Below, in pieces: positions 32,477 to 51,482 of a DNA stretch of 64,000 nucleotides (positions are counted from its first letter, which is position 1; every line of letters begins with the position of its first letter). Below the pieces are notes generated by a model. The model did no database searches, was not told the origin of the DNA, and was given only the letters and a program-made list of their open reading frames with translations. Source of the stretch: an uncultured bacterium (lineage in GTDB: Bacteria > Cyanobacteriota > Vampirovibrionia > Gastranaerophilales > Gastranaerophilaceae); contig CADCKD010000012.1 in assembly GCA_902801985.1 (NCBI GenBank), positions 1 through 64,000 of the forward strand. The letters are read 5' to 3'. Position numbers and translations under genes: made by a program.

Positions 32477-32532
32477 AAACAAAGTGTATATTATTTTAGA
32501 GCTAAAATCAATTCTTTATCAGTATAAAAAAA

Positions 32533-32548
32533 GAGGACAAATGTCCTC
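32533..32548 (-). terminator. Minus-strand terminator hairpin
   Basis: GAGGACA pairs with TGTCCTC around a 2-nt loop; on the minus strand it is followed by seven T residues. It lies 5' of the ABC ATPase gene, so it should end a transcript from further right, possibly the remnant frame at 32594-32660. Confidence 0.7.
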
Positions 32549-32593
32549 ATATTAATTAAGAATAGCTGGAAGTATGAAAAAGATTATCTATAT

Positions 32594-32660
32594 TTAATCC
32601 AATAAATAATCTAATTCATATACAACATATGGATATTCTTTTTGTAGCCCAATTTGGCTA
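32594..32660 (-). pseudogene. Possible 3' remnant of a lost gene
   Basis: On the minus strand a frame reads QIGLQKEYPYVVYELDYLLD and stops at 32594-32596, 46 nt before a terminator. It runs upstream into the TCATTGCGAG dispersed repeat with no start codon. It may be the end of a gene disrupted by the repeat. Too short to identify. Confidence 0.25.
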
Positions 32661-32676
32661 AGACAAGGGTAAATAA

Positions 32677-32966
32677 TGGGCTGGATTGCTTCGCTACCGC
32701 TCGCAATGACATGGTTATTGCTCCTCCCCTGCGGGGGAGGCTGGGTGTGGAATTATGTCATCACTTTGGGGAAGAAAAAAGTGAGGGACTATACGCGAAC
32801 TGTTATTTAGGTTCGCCCGTTATTTTTGCCTTACAGGCAAAAACATATGAGCAAATTAAACTGATACCTTATAAGCGAAGCGGTGCCGCAGGCGACGCGA
32901 TAATGAGCGTGTTTTTCTTTTCGGTTCACTTTTCTTTTTACGTCGCAATTAAAAAGAAAAGTGAAC
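32677..32966 (+). repeat. Composite repeat, including copy 1 of the four-hairpin element
   Basis: A dispersed GGATTGCTTCGCTACCGCTC element (32683-32710) is followed by a CCTCCCC/GGGGAGG hairpin (32723-32740) and then four hairpins: GCGAAC/GTTCGC (32795-32816), TTTTTGCC/GGCAAAAA (32823-32843), GCG-G-TGCC/GGCG-A-CGC (32880-32898) and a 17-bp stem (32924-32940 with 32950-32966, loop CGTCGCAAT). The same series occurs at 51198-51411. No credible gene lies in 32483-33010. Confidence 0.85.
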
Positions 32967-33010
32967 TATTAGTCAAAAATTATAGAAACTTCCAATAATA
33001 TTATTTATGC

Positions 33011-33039
33011 AAAAGACCGAACTTAATGTTCGGTCTTTT
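33011..33039 (-). terminator. Rho-independent terminator of gyrB
   Basis: AAAAGACCGAAC pairs with GTTCGGTCTTTT around TTAAT. On the minus strand it lies just after the gyrB stop codon at 33045. Confidence 0.9.
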
Positions 33040-50320: not shown

Positions 50321-51106
50321 ATGATAATACCTGCTGCATCTGATGTTGCATTCAATATCGGTTCTGTTTCCATATATTGGTATGGGATATTGATGGCCTG
50401 TGCAATTTTAATTGCGTTTCTTGTCGCAAATAAGTTAGGACAAAATTTATTTGCAAAAAAAGATTTCATTATAGAATATGCACCAATAATCATAATTTCC
50501 GGAATATTAGGAGCAAGGTTATATTTTTGTTTGCTAAATTGTGGTCATTATTTTTATCATCCACTTGAGATACTCGATATCAGAGAAGGCGGGTTATCTA
50601 TTCATGGCGCACTTATCGGAGGGATATGCGCACTTTTATATACGGCAAAAAGAAATAACATTCCTTTTTTAAGTTTACTTGATACTTTCTCTTGCGGGAC
50701 AATTTTAGGGCAAGCAATAGGACGTTGGGGAAATTATTTTAATTCGGAAGCATACGGATTGCCAATTGCCAATCAAAATTGGGGTCTATATATTCCTGAA
50801 GGCAGAAGAATTTCTCAATACGCAAATTTTTCACTATACCATCCGACTTTTTTATATGAAAGCGTACTGAATTTAATCTCTTTTGGAGTTTTATTGTTTA
50901 TATTTAAAAAATGTTCAAATAAATACAGAGGCGTTACATTTTTCTCATATTTAACAATATATGCAGTAATACGTTTTTTTATAGAACAAATAAGAATAGA
51001 TAGCGCACTGAATATAGGTACAATCCCAATTGCTGTAATTGTTTCTATTATATTATTTATAACCGGACTAATAGGAATAATATTCTGTTTAAAAACACAT
51101 GAATAG
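50321..51106 (+). CDS. lgt: Prolipoprotein diacylglyceryl transferase
   Basis: Lgt transfers diacylglyceryl from phosphatidylglycerol to the lipobox cysteine of prolipoproteins. The 261-residue integral membrane protein has seven hydrophobic segments, the signature GRWGNYFNSEAYG, GGLSIHGALIGG and HPTFLYES near the C-terminal third, and the conserved arginine in FFIEQIR. Length is typical (260-290). It is co-transcribed with the TPR lipoprotein (3-nt gap; GATGAGGAG is its ribosome binding site). Confidence 0.95.
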   Translation: MIIPAASDVAFNIGSVSIYWYGILMACAILIAFLVANKLGQNLFAKKDFIIEYAPIIIISGILGARLYFCLLNCGHYFYHPLEILDIREGGLSIHGALIGGICALLYTAKRNNIPFLSLLDTFSCGTILGQAIGRWGNYFNSEAYGLPIANQNWGLYIPEGRRISQYANFSLYHPTFLYESVLNLISFGVLLFIFKKCSNKYRGVTFFSYLTIYAVIRFFIEQIRIDSALNIGTIPIAVIVSIILFITGLIGIIFCLKTHE

Positions 51107-51197
51107 TATTATCAGTAGTTTTTTTTACAAAAGGTAAATGTAGTTTAACAGTGTAGCACATTTTGCATTAAAAGTCGAAAAAGTGGGGGAAATAATT

Positions 51198-51411
51198 CCC
51201 TCTCCAAGGGGGAGGGTTAGGGTGGGGGTTATAATGCGCAGCGTTGTTTTAGCTGCGCATAGAGATTTTTGTCCGTAGGACAAAAACGTATGAGTATTTT
51301 ATGTCTACATATTCCGAGCGGAACGATGCCGTCAGGCAGCGTTGTTGTTTGGCGTGCTTTCTTTTTCGGTTCACTTTTTCTTTCCCGTTGCAATGGAAAG
51401 AAAAAGTGAAC
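51198..51411 (+). repeat. Composite repeat, copy 2 of the four-hairpin element
   Basis: A G-rich CCCTCTCC/GGGGGAGGG hairpin (about 51198-51216) is followed by four hairpins: ATGCGCAGC/GCTGCGCAT (51234-51260), TTTTTGTCC/GGACAAAAA (51266-51286), AACG-A-TGCC/GGCA-G-CGTT (51322-51343) and a 17-bp stem (51369-51385 with 51395-51411, loop CGTTGCAAT). The order, the spacing and the loops match copy 1 at 32677-32966, while stem bases differ in compensating pairs. No gene is visible in 51107-51515. Confidence 0.85.
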
Positions 51412-51482
51412 ATAAGTGGAAAATTGTGCTAGTTCCGATAATACTATTTATTACTTTTTTTATTTTAATCTTTATTATATAA

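Follow-up and report, generated by a model that had tools for sequence, protein, structure and literature searches.

Intergenic hairpin arrays in a Gastranaerophilaceae genome are halves of dispersed non-coding elements with dif-like ends and a predicted intrastrand triple helix

The two hairpin arrays found in the window, the 64,000-nucleotide stretch of a Gastranaerophilaceae genome that was analyzed, each form the right half of a dispersed non-coding element. The last hairpin of each half is preceded by a pyrimidine tract, and comparison of many copies gives good support to the view that the hairpin and tract are kept by selection as a pyrimidine-motif intrastrand triple helix. We consider it rather probable that the feature in the window is half of a "C"-type dif module devoid of genes, which would be moved by Xer recombinases and whose triplex-forming ends would act in single-stranded form. 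The first-pass annotation of this DNA had described four hairpins in the same order in both copies, a purine-purine mismatch retained in the third of them (H3) and a G/C-rich hairpin ahead of each copy; all of these are present where they had been placed (Table 1), the H3 mismatch being G/A in copy 1 and A/G in copy 2. It had missed the mirror tract and the dif-like site on the 3' side, and had not recognized the copies as halves of larger elements. Its view of a folded element therefore holds but was incomplete, in that the array appears not to be a static intergenic RNA but to belong to a mobile element that can invert and is bounded by dif-like sites. As had been stated, no gene accounts for copy 1; an open reading frame of 114 aa overlaps it mechanically, and no support was found for its being a gene.

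Table 1. Features of the two element copies in the window
Feature	Position	Strand	Basis
Copy 1, probable left end: degenerate site GGGTAAATAATGG, then hairpin GGATTGCTTCGC..GCTCGCAATGAC	32667-32709	+	own-genome comparison, weak
Copy 1, G/C-rich hairpin and G-run, PIT/BoxC/TM_ECO-like, not a strict match	32721-32749	+	consensus from PMC4666352
Copy 1, H1: GCGAAC/GTTCGC, conserved loop of CGTTATTTAG type	32795-32816	+	sequence, 29-copy alignment
Copy 1, H2: TTTTTGCC/GGCAAAAA	32823-32843	+	sequence, 29-copy alignment
Copy 1, H3: GCG-G-TGCC/GGCG-A-CGC	32880-32898	+	sequence, 29-copy alignment
Copy 1, third-strand (Hoogsteen) tract TTTTTCTTTTC, exact mirror of the 5' arm	32912-32922	+	sequence, unbiased scan
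Copy 1, end hairpin: basal stem GTTCA/TGAAC, pyrimidine arm CTTTTCTTTTT, loop ACGTCGCAATT, purine arm AAAAAGAAAAG	32924-32966	+	sequence, scan
Copy 1, dif-like terminal site TTCCAATAA-TATTAT-TTATGCAA, adjoins gyrB terminator	32990-33012	+	sequence
Copy 2, left dif-like site TACTGATAA-TACTAT-TCATGTGT, overlaps lgt end	51095-51117	-	sequence read directly
Copy 2, G/C-rich hairpin CCCTCTCC..GGGGGAGGG with GGGTTAGGGTGGGGG, PIT/BoxC-like	51198-51228	+	sequence
Copy 2, H1	51234-51260	+	sequence
Copy 2, H2	51266-51286	+	sequence
Copy 2, H3	51322-51343	+	sequence
Copy 2, third-strand tract CTTTCTTTTTC, mirror of its own arm	51357-51367	+	sequence, scan
Copy 2, end hairpin: GTTCA CTTTTTCTTTC .. GAAAGAAAAAG TGAAC	51369-51411	+	sequence
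Copy 2, right dif-like site TTCCGATAA-TACTAT-TTATTACT	51433-51455	+	sequence

The structure of H1-H3 was fixed beforehand and examined in an alignment of 29 distinct right or left halves that share the same architecture and come from many species. Over the 29 copies, 98.6% of the H1-H3 cells are paired, as against 37-48% when the partners are slid by 1-3 columns; changes on both sides occur in 10 of the 22 pairs (85 cells), and the covariation score is 0.397 compared with 0.173 after shuffling, neither the percentage paired nor the score being reached by any shuffle. H1 occurs as GCGAAC/GTTCGC, GCGCGG/CCGCGC, GCGCAC/GTGCGC, AGGCGC/GCGCCT, and GCGGGG/CCCCGC with a similar loop throughout, and the loops of H1 and of the end hairpin are both conserved among the aligned copies. 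Further copies and covariation, on which the earlier claim had been made to depend, were thus both found, in the window's own genome and in the 29-copy alignment. The additional sequences uphold the proposal that selection acts on a fold of RNA or of single-stranded DNA, to which the covariation of the mirror tract adds a third strand. None of the Rfam families attains its gathering score here, the sub-threshold matches being scattered, and a known RNA family was rejected on this ground.

The pyrimidine tract directly 5' of the last hairpin mirrors its 5' arm (TTTTTCTTTTC and CTTTTCTTTTT in copy 1, CTTTCTTTTTC and CTTTTTCTTTC in copy 2) and therefore runs in the same direction as the purine arm, each T facing an A and each C a G. 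Strands are matched in this way in a pyrimidine-motif triple helix, in which T.A-T and C+.G-C triads would form, the latter requiring protonation. It should be noted that the sequences were gathered in part with a pattern containing GGTTCAC and that the mirror test was not conditioned on the tract: in an unbiased scan, every hairpin with a pyrimidine arm of at least 10 was taken regardless of what lay upstream, and the upstream DNA was then inspected. A perfect mirror is present in 117 of the 143 hairpin strands that have an upstream pyrimidine run, and the exact mirror is the majority form in all 24 tract classes, whereas swapping tracts between classes gives a mean of 1.2 and a maximum of 7. 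Antiparallel pairing of the upstream tract was rejected, as perfect direct repeats are found in only 10 of the 143 hairpins and 1 of the 24 classes. The tracts of the scanned hairpins are 11-14 nt in length and many classes are asymmetric (TTTTCTTTCTCT, CTTCTTTCTCTT, and TTTCTTTTCCTT), while the basal stem varies (GGTTCA/TGAAC, GCCAGCG/TGCTG, GTCTAGAA/TTCTAG, and CGTCTA/TAGAC); on the outer side of these hairpins a mirror tract was looked for and is absent. The complementary strand of the same sequence fits a purine-motif triplex, and either strand could therefore be the working strand.

A complete element of ~300-950 bp consists of two halves arranged head to head, with inverted 23-bp sites at its ends. 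Each half contains three or more hairpins followed by the end hairpin with its triplex-capable tract, and the end hairpins often lie in head-to-head pairs 95-736 bp apart. Outside each end hairpin is a site of the form TTCCKATAA-N6-TTATGTAA. In searches that tolerated mismatches in AT-rich DNA, this pattern gave 16, 58, 39, 28, 32, and 3 matches in six genomes and the reversed pattern 11, 9, 7, 2, 7, and 2, the counts for the window's genome being close to those of the reversed pattern, so that this genome stands barely above background. Among the site places listed, all 28 adjacent pairs are inverted with the XerC-like (TTCC) arms inward, and the 6-bp spacers are identical in 25 of the 28, compared with 9.3 (maximum 17) by within-genome shuffling; the same end arrangement is seen in 20 of 23 two-ended composites. 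The elements thus have the parts of a dif module, namely an inverted pair of sites whose conserved arms enclose a 6-bp spacer, with spacers that match, and conserved arms with a variable yet agreeing spacer are, as judged from sequence, the anatomy of a tyrosine-recombinase site. In ten element intervals there is no open reading frame above 139 aa and none that is supported as a gene.

Both sites are present in copy 2, with the spacer TACTAT in each; copy 1 has a clear right site and a degenerate left one. The hairpin GGATTGCTTCGC..GCTCGCAATGAC at 32682-32709 is also the left end of two other copies (L002 and L008) and may represent another end type of these elements; copies in the window's genome are mostly without the left triplex. 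In genomes of another genus, without GGTTCA hairpins, the sites are arranged likewise about tract hairpins of other kinds, some of which are shorter. A second end type, a hairpin CTGCCT..GGCAG beside a dif-like site, was observed in the flanks of L221 (G112:C1) and at L061, L088, and L230, apparently outside or around the triplex element. Separately, two inverted dif-like sites with the shared spacer TAGGGA lie 21 bp apart at G027:C10:26498-26563 and are possibly an emptied module.

From BLAST and pattern searches, copy 1 has 29 BLAST matches in its own genome, corresponding to about 12-15 distinct copies, several of which are at contig ends; the genomes are draft metagenome assemblies. End hairpins were found in 33 of 292 genomes of the phylum, all in the same family, whose members are gut bacteria, with zero matches for a reversed control pattern. 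The named matches with relatives are to Candidatus Gastranaerophilales of this family, and relatives are absent from all of the ~155 genomes outside it. Of 2.9 million viral contigs, a single one matched the end-hairpin pattern; its flanks were unrelated, and a viral origin was rejected. In Clostridia and Opitutales, hairpins CGGTTCACTTTT..AAAAGTGAAC were observed at L076, L105, L107, and L038, with a short upstream mirror tract in the first three and not in L038. A different dispersed repeat (AAAAAGAGGACAAATGTCCTC...) lies beside copy 1 at 32523-32610; it is found at 84-95% identity in many genomes of the same genus, including some without triplex hairpins.

Mobility of the element is well supported by comparison of related genomes. 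At one locus in genus g6 the element is absent from G054, G156, and G158, which have empty sites, and present in the others, and G112 carries the same ~362 bp, at 93-96% identity, in several further places. Three loci (L222, L224, and L225; genomes G154, G057, and G157) share flanks and differ in content, that of L225 and of G157 being partly inverted, at 92-93% identity. At the point downstream of gyrB that is occupied by copy 1, other species of the genus hold other elements or only half a site. No autonomous element was found. Relative to its two flanking genes, gyrB and an oligopeptide-transporter ATPase, copy 1 is antisense, and copy 2 lies in sense between lgt and atpD; this variable orientation to the neighbors favors, without proving, an element that works at the DNA level over a cis-regulatory RNA.

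Xer recombinases are probably tied to these elements. Relatives have two Xer-like proteins (~285-306 aa) and the window's genome one clear Xer-like protein; a clear partner of the XerD type was not seen in it. Against the NCBIfam XerC/XerD models, the Xer-like recombinases (285-306 aa) reach 320-329 bits, just under the cut-offs. A chromosomal dif was looked for in these genomes and none was identified, so that the sites are called "dif-like" for their architecture and for their likeness to known dif sites. One candidate, a TATATA site identical to Bacillus subtilis dif at 21 of 23 positions, is recurrent and was withdrawn because it is inside a conserved ORF of ~455 aa; the 21-mer near-identical to B. 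subtilis dif was observed within this ORF (FLHNIYYRYIS) at L260-L266 in several genera. Short tyrosine recombinases of 181 aa were also considered as the mover and set aside, the one examined (L278) having no link to the element; it lies at L278 1456-2001 adjoining a 335-aa gene, and every genome searched has short recombinases like it.

An ordinary miniature inverted-repeat element moved by a DDE-type transposase, with the dif resemblance a coincidence and the hairpins passengers, would also be short, non-coding, and dispersed, with inverted ends and recent near-identical copies. This is unlikely, however, because the 6-nt stretch varies between elements and matches within one, which suits the core of a recombinase site better than the end of a transposase substrate; in addition, no direct target-site duplication is evident at the sites compared, and the two end tracts of one element are identical in 0 of 42 pairs, where shuffling expects 3.5 (P 0.016). 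That structure is under no selection at all, the arms being kept complementary in a decaying repeat by template switching (palindrome correction), appears very improbable. Template switching does create paired changes in inverted repeats, but the upstream tract is a mirror, neither an inverted nor a direct repeat, and cannot be copied in this way, yet it is exact in 24 of 24 classes; it is because template switching keeps arms complementary and cannot copy a mirror that selection for the triplex is favored.

Another explanation, in which the working form would be the transcript, a structured RNA that contains a major-groove triple helix, serves in the protection or termination of RNA and has spread as a mobile module, seems to us quite unlikely. 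RNA major-groove triple helices are present in telomerase RNA and in viral stability elements, U.A-U triads fit RNA, the constant link of 1-2 nt over a basal stem of 4-6 bp would fit the deep A-form groove, and the loops of H1 and the end hairpin are conserved. These points are opposed by the occurrence of copies in either orientation to their neighbors, by the two-sided form of complete elements, both strands of which would fold alike, and by the lack of an Rfam match.

In the reading that we prefer, that of a gene-free dif module, XerC/XerD-type tyrosine recombinases would act at the dif-like sites, and inversion and exchange would require a matching 6-bp spacer. The hairpins and end triplexes would fold in single-stranded DNA, in the lagging strand or during transformation or repair; by analogy with CTX phage, folding would join the two inverted sites as one double-stranded site, which could then insert elsewhere. 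CTX phage attP and integron attC are folded single-strand substrates of tyrosine recombinases and, similarly, one strand of the present elements, with its inverted sites or hairpins, could fold into a recombination site; these elements differ in having no phage or cassette genes, and the single-stranded reaction is in their case a proposal. For the triplex itself we infer a role in the element. It is a tentative and somewhat doubtful suggestion that these are gene-free mobile elements with conserved triple-helix ends that move as folded single strands via the host Xer machinery, the triplex holding the folded recombination site together or shielding the site from pairing with its complement.

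The closest parallels to the end hairpins are the PIT/BoxC/TM_ECO sequences (Holder et al. 2015, PMC4666352), which are likewise dispersed intergenic hairpins with a third tract that could form an intrastrand triplex, are sometimes in inverted pairs, and are tied to genome instability. The G/C-rich hairpins at 32721 and 51198 are directly similar to them. The strict PIT consensus CCCTCNCCCN3-6GGGNGAGGGN3GGGNGAGGG has no match in the window, where sequences similar to it are found only at 51198 and 57167, the latter being a further G/C-rich PIT/BoxC-like sequence, CTCCTCCCCTAAGGGGGAGGCTGGGTAGGG. In contrast, the end hairpins are A/T-rich and fit class IV (5'-Hoogsteen/Y/R), having three consecutive tracts of the right order and polarity and stems within the 6-15 nt that the definition allows, and dozens of tract sequences covary on three strands within a defined element with dif-like ends. 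The ITxF survey restricts both loops to 1-6 nt (PMC4666352), whereas the first link here is 6 nt and the hairpin loop 11 nt; as the latter exceeds this range, the published search would miss these hairpins. It should also be recognized that footprinting of the PIT motif in Escherichia coli gave no stable triplex in vivo (PMC4666352).

The ends of the elements resemble those of the dif (pdif) modules of Acinetobacter plasmids and chromosomes (PMC13141974, PMC12907356, PMC6449649), which also have two inverted sites, each with a XerC-like arm, a 6-bp spacer, and a XerD-like arm, and in which segments are inverted or replaced between sites whose spacers match, these processes requiring spacers that are the same or nearly so (PMC13141974). 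Most known plasmid dif modules contain genes, whereas the elements described here carry none, although one published D module is also without ORFs (PMC13141974). The present elements differ further in being a few hundred bp in length, in having triplex hairpins, in belonging to a different phylum, and in occurring as single C-type modules scattered in the chromosome, not as alternating C and D modules. The REP/BIME sequences with RAYT (Y1) are also dispersed intergenic palindromes but have different ends, and this system was rejected, as there is no match to the Y1 transposase (PF01797) in the window's genome (G000). No dif-bounded miniature element and no mobile repeats of this order were found in the open-licence literature.

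The function of bacterial triplex-forming repeats has been an open question since the PIT/BoxC work in E. coli, in which no role was found beyond an association with instability (PMC4666352). Hairpins at fixed places in a mobile element, together with covariation on three strands, make function testable. We know of no precedent for a bacterial repeat in which a third strand covaries with a hairpin over two dozen sequence classes. If the preferred reading is true, the range of dif modules would come to include chromosomal examples from an unrelated phylum as well as units without genes, and the combination of Xer-like outer ends with a triplex end hairpin would make these an unusual, testable mobile element.
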